This document shows, in pieces, positions 2,102-16,555 of a DNA stretch of 28,709 nt; within the stretch, counting starts at the first letter, position 1; every line of letters begins with the position of its first letter. The position numbers were made by a program, and so were the translations under genes. The notes beneath the pieces are model-generated. The model did not search any database and was not told the origin of the DNA. It saw only the letters and a list, made by a program, of their open reading frames with translations. Source of the stretch: a virus; the IMG/VR virus record IMGVR_UViG_3300030119_000625, positions 1 through 28,709 of that record. One strand, given 5' to 3'.

Positions 2102-3478
2102 TTAGTCTCCAAATTTAATACCTTGTGCTAATGGTAATGATTTTCCGTAATTTATTGTGACTGTGCTTCTACGCATATATTGTTTCCATGCATCAGATCC
2201 AGACTCACGTCCACCACCAGTGTCTTTTTCACCACCAAATGCACCGCCAATTTCCGCACCGCTTGGTCCGATGTTAATATTAACAATACCACAATCAGAA
2301 CCTACTGCTGATGTAAAGGTTTCTGCCTCTTGCACATTATCAGTGAATATACAAGAACTTAAACCTTGCGGAACTGCGTTATGAATATTTATTGCTTCTT
2401 CTAAATCGTTATACTTTAACACATATAAAATAGGTGCAAACGTTTCTGTCTTAATTAAATCACATTGTTCTGAAGCCTCAACTATTGCTGGTTTGACAGT
2501 GCAACCTTCTACAACTTCACCGCCATGAACTATGTAACCTTTTGCTTTGGCTTGTTGTAATACCGAAAGCATTCTGTCTGCTGATTCTTGATTTATAAGT
2601 GGACCAACTAAAGTTTCTTCTTTAAAATTATCTCCCACAGGCAAACTTGCATATGCAGACTTTAATTTTTCTAATAATACATCATACACAGAATTATGCA
2701 CAATTAATCTTCTTAAGGTCGTACATCTTTGTCCTGCCGTGCCAACTGCACCAAATACAATACCTCTTACTGCTAGGTCAATATTTGCGTGTTCGGAAAC
2801 TATCATTCCATTGTTACCACCTAATTCGTACAAACCTTTGCCCATTCTTGCTGACACTCTTGGAGCCAATGCTTTACCCATTGCTGTCGAACCTGTGGCA
2901 CTTAATAGATTTATTCTTGTGTCATCTGCCATCCATTCTGCTTGTTCTTTATCTCCCTCAACAACTTGCAATAAATCTTTAAATTTTAAATCAGGGTAAA
3001 AACATTCGCTGACTGCTTTGTCCCATGCTTCTTTACAACTTTGTGTAACTTGACTTGCTTTAGGCGAACCTTTCCAAACTACACTGTTACCACACACCAT
3101 TGCTAAACAATGATTCCATGCCCAAACGGCACAAGGAAAATTAAAAGCAGTAATGACTCCAACAACTCCTAATGGATTGTAAACTTCTTGTAATTTGTGT
3201 TCTGGTCTTTCACTTTGTATTGTCAATCCATATAACTGTCTTGATAAACCTACAGCAAAGTCACACATATCAATTGCTTCTTGAACTTCACCGATTGCTT
3301 CTGCGTGTATTTTTTTTGCATCGTGCATGATTGCTTTACCAATCACTTCAATGTCATTTCGTAAATGATTTCCAAACACTCTAATTAATTCACCTCTTTT
3401 AGGTGCTGGTACAGTTCTCCATTCTTTCTGTATATCTATTGCTTTGCTTATTATCTGATCATAATCATTCTTATTCAT
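2102..3478 (-). CDS. amaB: ALDH7-type alpha-aminoadipate semialdehyde dehydrogenase
   Basis: 458 residues from the ATG at 3478; a TTG four codons earlier is less likely. Oxidises alpha-aminoadipate semialdehyde (or its cyclic form, piperideine-6-carboxylate) to alpha-aminoadipate with NAD+. Diagnostic ALDH7 blocks are present: AFNFP (111-115, N113), VVWKGSP (K136), YELGGNNG with general base E218, AGQRCTTLRRL with nucleophile C252, and GGEKDTGGGRESGSDAW (415-431) near the C-terminus, which is the family hallmark. Compared with ALDH7A1-like enzymes of about 500 residues, some 50 N-terminal residues are absent; the first recognisable aligned block is WRTVPAPKRGELIR at 20-33. It overlaps the end of the dehydrogenase gene upstream by eight bases, so translation is likely coupled and the two steps are consecutive in lysine breakdown. 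Confidence 0.92.
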   Translation of the reverse strand: MNKNDYDQIISKAIDIQKEWRTVPAPKRGELIRVFGNHLRNDIEVIGKAIMHDAKKIHAEAIGEVQEAIDMCDFAVGLSRQLYGLTIQSERPEHKLQEVYNPLGVVGVITAFNFPCAVWAWNHCLAMVCGNSVVWKGSPKASQVTQSCKEAWDKAVSECFYPDLKFKDLLQVVEGDKEQAEWMADDTRINLLSATGSTAMGKALAPRVSARMGKGLYELGGNNGMIVSEHANIDLAVRGIVFGAVGTAGQRCTTLRRLIVHNSVYDVLLEKLKSAYASLPVGDNFKEETLVGPLINQESADRMLSVLQQAKAKGYIVHGGEVVEGCTVKPAIVEASEQCDLIKTETFAPILYVLKYNDLEEAINIHNAVPQGLSSCIFTDNVQEAETFTSAVGSDCGIVNINIGPSGAEIGGAFGGEKDTGGGRESGSDAWKQYMRRSTVTINYGKSLPLAQGIKFGD

Positions 3479-4493
3479 AAAGTTTACCAAATTTATTGCT
3501 TAAAAAAGTTTCCAATGGTACGTCCTCCTGTCTTTGGAAACCTTTACCTGTTAGTTTTCCTTCAGCATAGGCAAGAACAATAGCACACATTCCTGAAGCA
3601 GTTGTTCTTTGTATTGCACTGAAGTTATCATCACCATATATTTTTTTGCTGTATGTGACTTCTTGTAAAGTTCCATCTTTGATTCCTACCACACTACAAA
3701 ACATCACAATCACATCTGATGTTGTATATGGTACTTCTTGATCAAATAGGTCAATAAATTTTTCTTTGTTATGTTTAAGATTTAAATCATCTAATAAAAA
3801 CTTCATAGAAGTGTGATGACCGGGATATCTAATTGTTTTGTAGTCTAAAGTTTTTACCTTGCCTTCAAATGTTTCACACATACTTGCGGCTCCGCCTGAC
3901 GTGTTAAATGCATCATACTTGTCACCGTCAATATAGATTGTTTCTAAACCATCCAAAGGTTGTGTCTTTATGTGTTTGCCATTTCTGATGACATCGCAAT
4001 CGTTGATATATTCATTAATTAAACCTGATGTACTCCAAGTCAAATAGTAAGACATTTTATTGTTTGGATACTTAGGTAATGCTCCGCCTCTCATATTAAC
4101 TTTGTCTACTCTTTCAAATTGTTTCATAAGATTACTTGCAACAATGTTTATGGCTCCAGGCGCAAATCCACATTGTGGCATCATGAATACATCTGATTTA
4201 AATGTTTTTATATGGTCCGTAACTTTTGTATCTTCAGTCAAGTCAAAATATGCAACATTATTTTCGTTGCAAGAATCTGCAATTAATGGATTAGCATCAT
4301 AAGGTGCGGCTGAAACTATTATGTCTTGTTTAGATACGAAAGCATCTAATTCTTTTTTATTAAAAACATCTAATGCTTGAACTTCATCGGACCCGAATTT
4401 ATCTGCAACCGTTACGTTATGTTCAGTTGTTTTAAGGTATGCGTGGATTGTAGAACCAATTTTACCAGCACCTAATATTCCGATGTTTTTCAT
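3471..4493 (-). CDS. Saccharopine dehydrogenase-family enzyme (saccharopine or lysine 6-dehydrogenase)
   Basis: 340 residues. N-terminal Rossmann motif GILGAGKIGS (5-14), then FDLTED (83-88), PQCGFAPG (106-113) and RYPGH (222-226), all typical of the saccharopine dehydrogenase family. It would yield alpha-aminoadipate semialdehyde, either from saccharopine (releasing glutamate) or directly from lysine, as the related lysine 6-dehydrogenases do. Its length is closer to lysine 6-dehydrogenase (about 380) than to fungal saccharopine reductase (about 445), so the direct lysine route is a real alternative. The ALDH7 gene for the next step follows with an eight-base overlap. The only ribosome-binding-like sequence, GAGGA, is far upstream (about 15 bases). 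Confidence 0.85.
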   Translation of the reverse strand: MKNIGILGAGKIGSTIHAYLKTTEHNVTVADKFGSDEVQALDVFNKKELDAFVSKQDIIVSAAPYDANPLIADSCNENNVAYFDLTEDTKVTDHIKTFKSDVFMMPQCGFAPGAINIVASNLMKQFERVDKVNMRGGALPKYPNNKMSYYLTWSTSGLINEYINDCDVIRNGKHIKTQPLDGLETIYIDGDKYDAFNTSGGAASMCETFEGKVKTLDYKTIRYPGHHTSMKFLLDDLNLKHNKEKFIDLFDQEVPYTTSDVIVMFCSVVGIKDGTLQEVTYSKKIYGDDNFSAIQRTTASGMCAIVLAYAEGKLTGKGFQRQEDVPLETFLSNKFGKLYE

Positions 4494-4983: not shown

Positions 4984-5193
4984 CTATGAATTAATTCTTC
5001 TAATTTTTTCTGCTTTTTTGATATTGATCAGTCTTCTTTTTTGCGTTTCTCTTTTTACTTCGCTAGGCTTTTGATAATACTGACGTCTTTTCAATTCTTG
5101 AAATATGCCTTCCTTTTTCAACTTCCTTTTCATTACTCGAAGTGCTTTTTCAACATTTCCATTTCTTACTTCTATCTTCAACAGGTCCTCCAT
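4984..5193 (-). CDS. rpsU: Ribosomal protein bS21
   Basis: 69 residues with the bS21 pattern: VRNGNVEKALRVMKRKLKKEG, then a basic RRQYYQKPSEVKR tail (aligned to the family's E.RR..YEKPS..RR region). In bacteria bS21 sits in the small subunit near the 3' end of 16S rRNA and influences initiation at mRNAs with particular Shine-Dalgarno strength. Phage copies of rpsU are known from marine and freshwater phages. The ATG has GGAGG directly upstream (minus AATGGAGGAC). A consensus promoter at 5225-5253 starts the operon that continues into lysine degradation. Confidence 0.9.
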   Translation of the reverse strand: MEDLLKIEVRNGNVEKALRVMKRKLKKEGIFQELKRRQYYQKPSEVKRETQKRRLINIKKAEKIRRINS

Positions 5194-5481: not shown

Positions 5482-5934
5482 TTAGAGAGTTAACTTCATT
5501 CCATACCTAGCAAACTTTTCTCGCCAAGCATAAAAATTTGAATTATGATTTGCGTATGGATCTTTTTGTACTTCCACTTGATATTGATGCACCATCTCAT
5601 GTGCCAATGTTTCTAAAAAGTCTTTCCATGTTTTAAATCTATTATGCAATTCTATTTTGTATCCAAAAGTAGGATTATGATACGGCAGTTTGCTTTGGTC
5701 ACACGTACCTGCTTTGGAATATCTTCCGTCCCAATCCATATGAAGTTGTCCAATGCAACCTCTTAATCTTTTAACCTTGATATCTACAGGTTTCAGTTTG
5801 TTTTCAAACAAGGATCTATTCAGGATTGTGAACCAAGTTTTAGCAACCTGGTCCGTTGGTGTGTAATTTTTAATGCCCCCGCGTTTCATCAAGGCTCTTT
5901 TGATTCTCGCTTTGTGTGATATGGTGTGTCGCAT
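5482..5934 (-). CDS. SprT-like zinc metalloprotease
   Basis: 150 residues. AHEMVHQYQ gives the zinc-binding HExxH (H112, E113, H116), with H130 (YANHNSNFYAW) a likely third ligand. This is the SprT/Spartan-like arrangement; cellular relatives of Spartan cut proteins crosslinked to DNA. The first 25 residues are very basic (KARIKRALMKRGG). No clear Shine-Dalgarno sequence is seen at the ATG at 5934. It follows a second HEMVH protein gene (6005-6484) and is probably cotranscribed with it. Confidence 0.75.
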   Translation of the reverse strand: MRHTISHKARIKRALMKRGGIKNYTPTDQVAKTWFTILNRSLFENKLKPVDIKVKRLRGCIGQLHMDWDGRYSKAGTCDQSKLPYHNPTFGYKIELHNRFKTWKDFLETLAHEMVHQYQVEVQKDPYANHNSNFYAWREKFARYGMKLTL

Positions 5935-6004: not shown

Positions 6005-6484
6005 TTATTTTAGACTTTCTTGAGTCCAACCATGCTTTCCAAGGTCATTTGCTTCTGCCCATCTAATAAAAAGTCCTAATTCTTTGCCATGTGCTTCAAC
6101 TTCCCATGGCAGATCCCAATAATTTGTTTTGCTATCCACAACACTTTCAAGCCATTTTGTGGAACCACATCTGCTCAAATCGACCAATTCTCCTTTGGCA
6201 TATTGTTTGATGTGCACCATTTCATGAGCGATTGTTTCCATTATTCTTCGTTTGGATCCTGTGGCATCAACTGTCATAGTAAATTCTCTGGGCCTATGAT
6301 TGCTATCATCAAAATCAACTTCACCAAGTATACCATCTTCCTTGTATAGTGTTTTGGTAAAATCTAAATCAATTGTAATTTTTTTTCTTAGATTATTGGA
6401 AAACAATTTAGATGCACAATAGTCAATAAGACTGTGTGCTAGTTCACGTAAATTTTTATTTCCACCTGTGATGTAAACATTCAT
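6005..6484 (-). CDS. SprT-like zinc metalloprotease, second copy type
   Basis: 159 residues from the ATG at 6484; an in-frame ATG at 6499 overlaps the -10 element of the promoter and cannot be used from it. HEMVH at 87-91 supplies two histidines and the catalytic glutamate; PWEVEAHG (126-133) probably provides the third metal ligand, which differs from the histidine in the neighbouring gene. Sequence similarity to the neighbour beyond HEMVH is low, so this is not a recent duplication. The promoter lies only five bases ahead of the ATG, so the message would be leaderless. Confidence 0.75.
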   Translation of the reverse strand: MNVYITGGNKNLRELAHSLIDYCASKLFSNNLRKKITIDLDFTKTLYKEDGILGEVDFDDSNHRPREFTMTVDATGSKRRIMETIAHEMVHIKQYAKGELVDLSRCGSTKWLESVVDSKTNYWDLPWEVEAHGKELGLFIRWAEANDLGKHGWTQESLK

Positions 6485-6489
6485 TCTTA

Positions 6490-6518
6490 ATATTAACATT
6501 ATTTTTATTGTAAGTCAA
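6490..6518 (-). promoter_or_regulatory. Sigma-70 promoter, TTGACT-17-TAATAT
   Basis: TTGACT (6518-6513), 17-base spacer, TAATAT (6495-6490). The -10 ends five bases before the ATG at 6484. Confidence 0.75.
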
Positions 6519-6545: not shown

Positions 6546-7259
6546 TTATTGTACAGATGTTGCCGTTTTAATCTTAGGAAATAAAGCGTCAGTGCAAAAC
6601 AATTCTACATCCGCTTCATTAAGTCCTAAAGATTTCATTACTTTAGGTGTATGAGGATTTTGTTGTTGGTTATGGCAGTAATAATTTTGTGCTTTGATAG
6701 TTTCTTCTTCAGACGCAGTATTATTATAATCACAAATAGAATCAAAATACACGACTAGATTATCTAATGCCAATTGCACTATTGCTTTGGCTTCTTCGTC
6801 TGTTCTTACATTACCTGCCGCTATCATACTTCCACTGAAGATGTTTAATGCCCATTGTGGTAATTCTCTTTTTTTACTAGGAACAAATTCTTCCACTGCT
6901 TCTTTAAACCAATCTATCAATGGGTGTGCTTCGCCGCCAGAACTTTTTGAAAAATCATGAAATGCTCCGGTCATTTTATTTTTACCTGCGATGACATCAA
7001 AGCCGTATATAGGACCATTGTTATTTAAATTAGGAAATATGCAAACGTGCATCATCCATAATGCTTTCGACTCCCTAGCATCTACAACATCAATATGACA
7101 GCGTCTACAATCTTTGGTTTCCCACACTCGGTTTATCCAACCATTATCTGGTTGATTAAATTGTGCCATGCCCGGCTCTTGTATTTCTTTGCCACGTTTA
7201 TCAAATTCATTAATAATTTGTTTTTGACAATCAATTAATGTGTCCCAAATAAAACTCAT
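6546..7259 (-). CDS. pcyX: Ferredoxin-dependent bilin reductase (PcyX/PebS type)
   Basis: 237 residues from the ATG at 7259, chosen because GGGAG lies eight bases upstream; an in-frame ATG at 7274 lacks this. The family core is clear: CRRCHIDVVDARESKALWMM, HVCIFPNL, GPIYGFDVIAG and GAFHDFS. H71 and D88 are 17 residues apart, the same spacing as the catalytic H88 and D105 of PcyA. These enzymes reduce biliverdin IXalpha with ferredoxin. PebS (cyanophage) and PcyX (uncultured marine phages) both give phycoerythrobilin. It is in one operon with heme oxygenase, which supplies biliverdin. I name it pcyX because of the non-cyanobacterial context; PebS or PcyA cannot be excluded without a tree. Confidence 0.85.
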   Translation of the reverse strand: MSFIWDTLIDCQKQIINEFDKRGKEIQEPGMAQFNQPDNGWINRVWETKDCRRCHIDVVDARESKALWMMHVCIFPNLNNNGPIYGFDVIAGKNKMTGAFHDFSKSSGGEAHPLIDWFKEAVEEFVPSKKRELPQWALNIFSGSMIAAGNVRTDEEAKAIVQLALDNLVVYFDSICDYNNTASEEETIKAQNYYCHNQQQNPHTPKVMKSLGLNEADVELFCTDALFPKIKTATSVQ

Positions 7260-7260
7260 A

Positions 7261-7488
7261 TTATACACTCCCATCTATAAAAGGATCATCTATCTCTTCA
7301 CCTTTTATTGCTTTGATTCTATCCTCAAGCACACTAATCGCAGTTAAGATATGACCGCAATCTGTTTCCTGTACCCTACTTTTTAAATACTTTACTTCTT
7401 GTTGCAGTATATTAGTTCTTATTAGGTTACCAGAGAAGTCTTTTCTTGCTTCTCTTAAAGGAGATGTTTTACTTAACTTCACTGTCAT
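7261..7488 (-). CDS. Small helical protein between heme oxygenase and bilin reductase
   Basis: 75 residues; overlaps the end of heme oxygenase by 20 bases, with GGAG five bases before its ATG, and ends one base before the start of the reductase gene. A helical middle (NILQQEVKYLKSRVQETD) is flanked by polar ends. Unknown function; position suggests cotranslation with the bilin pathway genes, and it should be tested as a partner rather than assumed to be one. Confidence 0.65.
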   Translation of the reverse strand: MTVKLSKTSPLREARKDFSGNLIRTNILQQEVKYLKSRVQETDCGHILTAISVLEDRIKAIKGEEIDDPFIDGSV

Positions 7489-8014
7489 TCATCTCCTTGA
7501 ATAGTTCAGTTGCAAATTCAAAGCAAATTTTTGCTTCGTCTGCCATTGAATCTTTACACTTGCTTCTAATTTTTTCTTTAATGGCTTGAACATCATCATC
7601 AAATTGATATAGTTTGCCTGAACCTGGAACTTTCTTTTTAAGCATCTGTCCGCCACTTAAATCTCCCATGTGTCTAACGTAAACGTGAGCCATCACTTTG
7701 TCTACATCTTCTTTGATGGCAAAAATATGATCCATATATTTTCTTGTGGATGATTTAAGTTGTGGTTTCTCATCATTGCCCCACAGTTCGTTGAAGTCCT
7801 CCATTATGTTTGGTGCACGTCTCACTGTTGGCATATCATTAAACAAACCATGCATCATTGCAGTGGCTTCCAGTATATCATAAACGGCGTGTTGATTGTA
7901 TAAAAATTCTGCGTATCTTTTTGGTTCTACTTTACCTTTGAAGATCTCTTTTACAAATGCTTGTCTCTCTGCATTCTTATGGACCTCCCAGGTCAACTCT
8001 TTTAATTTACTCAT
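7469..8014 (-). CDS. ho1: Heme oxygenase (HO-1 family)
   Basis: 181 residues. Opens heme to biliverdin, CO and Fe2+ with electrons from ferredoxin or a flavoprotein. LKELTWEVHKNAE places the proximal heme ligand at H12; the distal helix reads HVYVRHMGDLSGGQ (110-123) with the glycines that allow heme access. The length matches bacterial HO-1 proteins, which lack a membrane tail. It precedes a bilin reductase in the same operon, so biliverdin is probably handed on, and iron is released as a by-product. GGGAGAG precedes the ATG. Confidence 0.92.
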   Translation of the reverse strand: MSKLKELTWEVHKNAERQAFVKEIFKGKVEPKRYAEFLYNQHAVYDILEATAMMHGLFNDMPTVRRAPNIMEDFNELWGNDEKPQLKSSTRKYMDHIFAIKEDVDKVMAHVYVRHMGDLSGGQMLKKKVPGSGKLYQFDDDVQAIKEKIRSKCKDSMADEAKICFEFATELFKEMNDSEVK

Positions 8015-8044: not shown

Positions 8045-8353
8045 TTATTCTTGTTCAACTATTACTTGGAGCGGAAAACCCCTGGTCCTAGCAGTATTGG
8101 TAACCTCAGTTCCTTTTTGTTCTGCGATCTCATATGTGTATATACCTACAACACAGGACCCCTCCTTATGAATCTTGAGTGTAAGTTCTTTGGCAGTTTC
8201 AATACTGTGGTGGAAAATGGTAGTTAAGATGTCTATTACAAAGTCCATAGGCGTGACATCATCATTCATTAGGATGACTTTGTAATTGTCAGGTTCTTTT
8301 ACAACCTGCTTTATTTTTTCATCAATTTGTACGTCTAATTCAGTTCCGGTCAT
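8045..8353 (-). CDS. clpS: ClpS, adaptor for ClpAP
   Basis: 102 residues from the ATG at 8353 (AGGA upstream); an ATG at 8401 is in frame but a strong hairpin lies between. ClpS brings proteins with destabilising N-terminal residues to ClpAP. The N-degron pocket is conserved: MNDDVTPMDFV (N30, D31, D32) and IHKEGSCVVGIYTYEIAEQK (H62), equal to N34/D35/D36 and H66 in E. coli. The length agrees with cellular ClpS (about 106). It lies between hsp20 and ho1 in a single operon. Confidence 0.92.
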   Translation of the reverse strand: MTGTELDVQIDEKIKQVVKEPDNYKVILMNDDVTPMDFVIDILTTIFHHSIETAKELTLKIHKEGSCVVGIYTYEIAEQKGTEVTNTARTRGFPLQVIVEQE

Positions 8354-8370
8354 ATTTGTCCTAATTGTTA

Positions 8371-8392
8371 GGTAGGGTGTTGCCACCCTACC
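8371..8392 (-). other. Strong intercistronic hairpin between hsp20 and clpS
   Basis: Perfect 9-bp stem GGTAGGGTG/CACCCTACC with a GCAA tetraloop (minus strand). It starts 12 bases after the hsp20 stop. There is no T run after it on the minus strand, so it is not a standard terminator; it could protect the hsp20 end from exonucleases or act as a partial or processed end that sets the hsp20:clpS ratio. Confidence 0.75.
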
Positions 8393-8403
8393 CATATCCA
8401 AAG

Positions 8404-16108: not shown

Positions 16109-16193
16109 AACGCATCTCCTACAATATATTTAGACTTATGCTTATAAAAGATAAAACATTAGTTTGTGGTAATAAGATTATTAAACTGAAAAT

Positions 16194-16217
16194 GTGTAGG
16201 GGCCGAAACCCCTACAC
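16194..16217 (-). terminator. Hairpin at the 3' end of the tmRNA gene
   Basis: Nine-bp stem GTGTAGGGG/CCCCTACAC with a TTTCGG loop, then ATTTTC on the minus strand. It ends the tmRNA transcript; the T run is short, so some read-through into the small-gene cluster is possible. Confidence 0.75.
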
Positions 16218-16520
16218 CTGACTACTTCTGTTGCCCGGCTAGTCTTCTCCGCCAAGTGGCCGATTATTAGGCGGCAACCAATTCCGCATCAGCAAATATG
16301 CTGACTGGAACTGTCACTTCTGGTTTAAATGCTTTTGCATTTATAAGTTTGATCAATAACGCAATCACCCGGTAAACTCCATATGTCTTTATACAACTAG
16401 TCGAACCTATATCACCCCCGTAAAGCACACACCAGAATGTGTTTTGCGTGAACGATTTGGTGGAGGTGGTCGGTACTGCCCCGACGTCCTAAATGTTTAT
16501 TCCACACACTTCAACGTCTA
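16218..16520 (-). ncRNA. ssrA: Circularly permuted (two-piece) tmRNA
   Basis: Read on the minus strand, the order is acceptor piece, spacer, coding piece, as in alphaproteobacterial two-piece tmRNA. Acceptor piece (about 16520-16458): T-arm GTCGG-GGCAGTA-CCGAC, then CACCTCC-A-CCA with CCA encoded. Spacer of 38 bases (16457-16420). Coding piece from 16419: GGGGGTG, then the conserved GGTTCGAC. The 7-bp acceptor stem GGGGGTG/CACCTCC is complete and its third pair is G-U, the alanine identity element; the discriminator is A. CTAGTTGTATA (16400-16390) can pair with TAAACATTTAG (16499-16489) in 9 of 11 positions as the P2 joining helix. The stop codons lie in the loop of a CCGCC/GGCGG stem. The T-loop is not the usual TTCRANY. 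Ends are estimated. It would rescue stalled ribosomes. Confidence 0.93.
16267..16338 (-). other. tmRNA tag reading frame
   Basis: From GCA at 16338 the frame reads AKAFKPEVTVPVSIF then ADAELVAA and stops at TAA (16269-16267), followed by a second TAA: 23 residues. Ala as first residue and a hydrophobic-Ala-Ala end fit a tag for ClpXP. The resume codon is inferred from the A at -4 and typical Ala start; it could be a codon further along, giving a shorter tag. Confidence 0.8.
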
Positions 16521-16526
16521 CAATGT

Positions 16527-16555
16527 ATTTAAACTGATTTACGTTCAAATGTCAA
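16527..16555 (-). promoter_or_regulatory. Sigma-70 promoter of the tmRNA, TTGACA-17-TTAAAT
   Basis: TTGACA (16555-16550), 17 bases, TTAAAT (16532-16527); a TAAATA register with an 18-base spacer is equally possible. The start of transcription near 16520 agrees with the length expected for an acceptor piece. The -35 overlaps the last bases of the gene upstream. Confidence 0.7.

Follow-up and report, generated by a model that had tools for sequence, protein, structure and literature searches.

A permuted two-piece tmRNA with a long, hairpin-bearing tag frame in a marine phage and its company of Clp genes

We analyzed a 28,709-nucleotide stretch of viral DNA (the window; positions 1 to 28,709 of IMG/VR record IMGVR_UViG_3300030119_000625) in which an initial annotation, made from the letters alone, had described a circularly permuted tmRNA gene. 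The one gene that ARAGORN called in the window was a permuted tmRNA (16176-16550, minus strand). An Rfam search at gathering thresholds returned tmRNA_permuted (RF04321; 100.3 bits, E value of 1.1e-18, cutoff of 47) and alpha_tmRNA (RF01849; 98.2 bits, E value of 6.6e-26, cutoff of 50), each at about twice its gathering score, while no Rfam riboswitch reached threshold in the window. Covariance models and ARAGORN thus both detect the gene, an intact, alpha-type, two-piece tmRNA that spans approximately 16521-16217 on the minus strand, or extends to 16194 if its terminator is included.

In the permuted order, the acceptor piece bearing CCA is encoded upstream of the coding piece (all tmRNA features are on the minus strand). 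The acceptor piece (16458-16521), delimited by ARAGORN, the Rfam alignments, and covariation, comprises the P2 5′ strands, the T-arm (16485-16469), the acceptor 3′ strand CACCTCC (16468-16462), the discriminator A73 (16461), and CCA (16460-16458). A 38-nt intervening segment (16420-16457) follows, which varies among relatives in sequence and length and which, from its position between CCA and GGGGGTG, is predicted to be removed to yield two pieces. The coding piece opens with the acceptor 5′ strand GGGGGTG (16413-16419), placed by sequence, Rfam, and alignment of relatives, and continues with the remaining 5′ tRNA-like domain (GGTTCGAC at 16407-16400) and the P2 3′ strands, ending in GUUUAC (16372-16412; Rfam alignment and P2 covariation). 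At its 3′ end lies the alpha-type element GACTA...GGCAACAGAA...TAGTC (16220-16244), located by the Rfam alpha_tmRNA alignment. The initial annotation had given the same motif order and spacer without naming a strand; both hold when read on the minus strand. Its G-U third acceptor pair is likewise present (G3-U70, the alanine identity pair) and stands, as U-G, in 25/25 aligned sequences.

The gene had also been credited with a consensus promoter and an end hairpin. The hairpin was found as a terminator-like 10-pair stem, GTGTAGGGG/CCCCTACAC, with a weak U-tract, ATTTTCAGTTT (16194-16217, minus strand). For the promoter, TTGACA (16555-16550) was read by eye 17 nt ahead of TTAAAT, within TTTAAATA (16533-16526), giving a promoter-like element at 16526-16555 on the minus strand, but a strict sigma-70 promoter scan returned no match. 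Relatives carrying the same type of tag (class a, below) have TTGACA and TTTAAATA in the same position, with a different sequence between the two. Because both elements recur despite the differing spacer sequence, the tmRNA is likely to have its own promoter, though one short of strict consensus.

To assess the structure, we aligned 25 distinct related phage genes, drew the structure from the window, and counted pairs. Standard pairs occupied 97.3% of pair cells, compared with at most 49.5% for slid structures; 40 cells were doubly changed, compared with 12.5 in shuffles, and covariation was 0.220, compared with 0.118 in shuffles. Compensatory swaps were evident in the T-arm (U-A/A-U/C-G and C-G/G-C) and in P2 (U-A/A-U and G-C/A-U). 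Compensatory changes had been expected in the acceptor stem as well, but this stem did not vary in 25/25 sequences, so its pairing is neither backed nor opposed by covariation. In one tag family, distinct types of T-arm/T-loop are each matched to a type of 5′ tRNA-like segment (alignment columns 41-57 and 110-125) (GTCGG..GGCAGTA, GAGGG..TTCGACT, and GCGGG..TTCAACT), suggesting that the tRNA-like domain may have recombined around a constant tag.

The tag frame identified by ARAGORN (16264-16338, minus strand) begins at the resume codon GCA (16338) and encodes 23 amino acids, AKAFKPEVTVPVSIFADAELVAA, followed by TAA TAA. Its type, designated class a, has the form AxAFKPEVTVPxSxFADxELVAA and was found as an intact 23-aa frame in 57 viral contigs, whereas the exact degenerate pattern occurred in 0/84,980 prokaryote genomes. 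A second family, class b (AxxKALGFADLTV...LRLAA), was found in 39 contigs. Since 50/122 of the first pattern matches lacked an ARAGORN tmRNA and may have arisen by chance, counts were restricted to ARAGORN-positive loci; three chance matches to the tag pattern (L128, L182, and L195) were left out. Among 71 such sequences (the window and those found in a viral scan blind to the tag, with two ARAGORN-shortened tags corrected), lengths were bimodal: 52 tags had 9 to 15 amino acids and 19 had 22 to 30. An AA ending is common to short and long tags, the exception being an ELVAV-ended subgroup of seven class-a contigs (L083, L086, L136, L138, L147, L161, and L163), an ending expected to weaken Clp recognition and that might slow degradation. 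The tag sequence gave no match by tblastn, and a BLASTN comparison of the tmRNA region with 50,697 phage records found nothing relevant. Length by itself was rejected as unprecedented, as rare alphaproteobacteria have tags of 21 to 32 amino acids, unrelated in sequence. The window tag belongs to one of several long-tag (22 to 30 aa) phage families, its own being phage-only and, as far as we have found, new.

Folding of the tag region gives two hairpins (z score of -3.30). One, at the resume codon (AAUGC/GCAUU; 16328-16341, minus strand), keeps its 5 pairs in 17/17 distinct sequences. The other, predicted by folding within the tag frame (16279-16313, minus strand), accounts for most of the extra length. 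Every member tested from three long-tag families had in-frame hairpins, built from unrelated sequences. In class a, 95.4% of cells in the in-frame helix were paired and covariation was weak; in class b, helices were 99.0% paired, compared with at most 36.0% when slid, and the third base of Gly7 covaried with the first base of Ser16 (A-U in 13, G-C in 4, and U-A in 1). This covariation forces residue 16 from Ser to Pro or Thr, an instance of RNA pairing imposing amino acid changes on a degradation tag. An RNA hairpin set within the reading frame best accounts for the additional length of the tag. The tag had a dN/dS of ~0.22 to 0.29 in both classes, a value rejected as proof of selection on the peptide and as clean evidence of peptide function because RNA pairing in the in-frame hairpins confounds it.

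The window also encodes ClpS, a Clp protease adaptor and possible partner, 7.9 kb from the tmRNA (8045-8401, minus strand; Pfam ClpS, 109.6 bits). Phages with long tags often carry ClpS along with ClpP, ClpA, or ClpX. ClpS was found in 28/44 class-a records and a ClpP-family protease in 10/23. The syntenic class-a relative G233 (148 kb) carries ClpA, two ClpP-like proteins, ClpS, and the tmRNA in one record, whereas the window has ClpS and the tmRNA only. The G233 ClpA scored 878 bits, under the equivalog cutoff of 993, has copies that are 82 to 93% identical in other contigs, and carries MGF in place of IGL/IGF at the presumed ClpP loop. In class b, a ClpX-type gene lies near ClpS in seven records and occurs without ClpS in an eighth; the single copy read from end to end is ClpX (533 bits; cutoff of 359). 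A third long-tag family lies in a 117-kb ClpA record. ClpS and ClpA/ClpX were present in 0/16 short-tag tmRNA controls (for ClpS, long- versus short-tag records, Fisher P value of 0.0004, which overstates independence because the records are fragments and kin), and ClpS occurred in only 18/50,697 phage records. On the other hand, the tag in a 180-kb ClpA record is short (13 aa), and no permuted tmRNA was seen in 48/50 other ClpA records. SspB was considered as a phage adaptor and rejected, as none was found in 36 records. SmpB was not found in 43 class-a records, mostly fragments, so that function of the tmRNA would depend on the host. No paper joining phage tmRNA with phage Clp was found in the open-access literature.

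G233 additionally carries DnaJ, GroEL, DnaK, and Hsp20, making an unusually complete set of chaperones and proteases, although its GroEL/DnaK end is possibly a host chimera; two further contig loci (L399:1061-4656 and L404:2-3194) were grouped with this set. One class-b locus (L491:664-3132) encodes a complete ClpX with an IGF loop, then an S21-like open reading frame (ORF), Hsp20, and ClpS; in the window, a 2OG-Fe(II) oxygenase precedes Hsp20 and ClpS where ClpX and the S21-like ORF stand in class b. On the minus strand of the window are also an SprT-like metallopeptidase (5482-5934; Pfam match) and another protein, which bears an HEMVH zinc motif (6005-6499). The HEMVH-motif protein has a homologue beside a ClpP-like protease gene in several relatives.

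The phage had been called T4-like and its tmRNA had been attributed to an alphaproteobacterial host. Matches to G233 were found for 62 window ORFs (opposite-strand shadow frames included) in one collinear block at 87 to 116 kb, and G233 has the same tmRNA gene in the same neighborhood. Sixteen window ORFs match the Pelagibacter phage Mosig (Kyanoviridae), the closest isolate with the same bilin-reductase/heme-oxygenase pair and the only phage record whose match extends over 80% or more of the window bilin reductase (55.7% identity). Between G233 and Mosig, NrdA is 71%, NrdB 65%, and the bilin reductase 56% identical, but Mosig capsid, portal, sheath, and terminase had no blastp match in G233. 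No T4-type capsid or tail genes lie within the window, and a Gp23 search found no match anywhere, with controls likewise silent. The T4-like label is unproven because G233 matches the enzymes of Mosig but not its structural genes.

As to origin, the RNA is indeed of the alpha type. In a tree of the tRNA-like domain, which rests on a short alignment with weak deep nodes, the window grouped with other long-tag phages (support of 0.86 to 0.95), apart from SAR11. Tags in 8 SAR11 genomes were all 9 amino acids long (ANESYALAA in 6/8), compared with 23 in the window. Any capture from a host would be old, because the tRNA-like domain groups with those of phages and the tag is absent from the prokaryote genomes searched; these comparisons give no sign of a recent capture from SAR11.

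Other genes of the window, all on the minus strand, include the tandem bilin reductase and heme oxygenase (6546-7274 and 7469-8014), arranged as in Mosig (55.7% and 44.6% identity), and a 69-aa ORF (4984-5193) with 58.9% identity to an annotated Mosig phage ribosomal protein S21. Adjacent and overlapping ORFs at 3471-4493 and 2102-3490 resemble, by eye, a saccharopine dehydrogenase and an aldehyde dehydrogenase, possibly a lysine-breakdown pair in a phage; the saccharopine-dehydrogenase-like protein had no match in a family search.

Taken together, the anatomy and its conservation make it very probable that this is a genuine, selected, and functional two-piece tmRNA that carries out trans-translation. 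In the scheme we favor, only the anatomy and conservation come from the present data, and every functional step is drawn from established tmRNA biology. The tmRNA would be transcribed from its own local promoter, and host tRNA-processing enzymes would trim it to two pieces held together by base pairing. Host AlaRS would charge it with alanine via G3-U70, and host SmpB would carry it to ribosomes stalled on mRNAs broken during infection, the period in which we infer it to be active. Addition of the 23-residue ...ELVAA tag would then send the stalled product to host, and perhaps phage, Clp proteases. The weaker Clp recognition expected for the ELVAV-ended relatives counts against this scheme, as do its reliance on the host for SmpB and an acceptor stem too uniform to show covariation. 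Delivery of tagged products to phage Clp proteins in particular is much less certain and seems unlikely.

Two readings would strip the gene of this role. It could be a functionless passenger or a decaying copy of a host gene, given that a gene of this kind is present in SAR11 host genomes, but the compensatory changes, the conserved synteny and promoter, and the phage-specific clade largely refute this reading, which we regard as very improbable. Alternatively, the phage RNA might compete with host tmRNA or SmpB as a decoy and so block host trans-translation, an action reported of phage DS6A, whose RNA lacks a tag (precedent cited in PMC11915505); the missing phage SmpB would fit. A decoy, however, needs no tag frame, resume codon, or stops, yet dozens of contigs conserve all of these intact, leaving this reading improbable.

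The remaining alternatives concern what the long tag does. The extra codons may serve only as an in-frame RNA helix that either sets the resume codon in position or makes the coding piece more stable, the peptide acting through its C-terminal degron alone. Hairpins formed from unrelated sequences in three families, the near-complete pairing in class b with its Gly7/Ser16 covariation, and the folding z score all speak for this; weak covariation in class a and the low dN/dS in both families, though confounded by pairing, speak against it. We consider it evenly balanced, and, concerning tag length alone, it is compatible with a functional two-piece tmRNA. The phage Clp parts might instead read the long tag preferentially and steer stalled or unwanted proteins to the phage's own unfoldase and protease. 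The frequency of ClpS and ClpP in class a, ClpA in G233, the full class-b ClpX beside S21, Hsp20, and ClpS, the 117-kb ClpA record, the empty short-tag controls, and the rarity of ClpS among phages are all consistent with such private tagging. It is nonetheless unlikely, since the records are fragmentary and related, the window itself has ClpS only, SspB is missing, the 180-kb record and most other ClpA records break the association, the ClpA loop is atypical, and tag conservation is partly driven by RNA. Also doubtful is a still more specific form, a dedicated marine-phage disposal pathway in which hairpin and peptide are jointly selected and the phage's own long tag is read by phage ClpS with ClpA/ClpP or ClpX; if it existed, the phage would control which proteins are destroyed during infection. 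The phage-only long-tag family, with its in-frame hairpin and frequent Clp genes, makes two questions directly testable: whether phages retag stalled proteins and whether they dispose of them with a protease of their own.

The initial annotation had held a tmRNA of this form in a T4-like phage to be worth a careful description, but the gene is of an already known kind. In 2022, Buchholz et al. described a two-piece tmRNA in Melnitz, a myophage of OM43, and related the RNA to Alphaproteobacteria; their count of phages with such genes was 53, of which 50 came from marine or aquatic samples (PMC9004378). Mosig has an annotated SsrA, and the tmRNA database paper lists 79 bacteriophage sequences (PMC11915505). 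Melnitz and Mosig share with the window a permuted alpha-type tmRNA in a marine phage. Mosig, however, has a short tag, GEDNFALAA, whereas the window, from another phage lineage, has a 23-aa tag with an in-frame hairpin, and Melnitz carries a glutamine riboswitch, unlike the window at the Rfam threshold. Alphaproteobacterial two-piece tmRNAs (RF01849/RF04321) have the same gene order, tRNA-like domain, P2, GGCAACAGAA, and tag ORF; those of SAR11 differ in their 9-aa tags and in standing outside the phage clade of the window's tRNA-like domain. Genes for ClpS, ClpP, ClpA, and SprT-like proteins occur in jumbo phage groups, as reviewed in PMC7824862, which makes no mention of tmRNA; PA5oct-type phages have ClpS. 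Here, Clp genes keep company with a phage tmRNA that has its own type of tag, and it is this long-tag hairpin family and its Clp company that, as far as we have found, are new.
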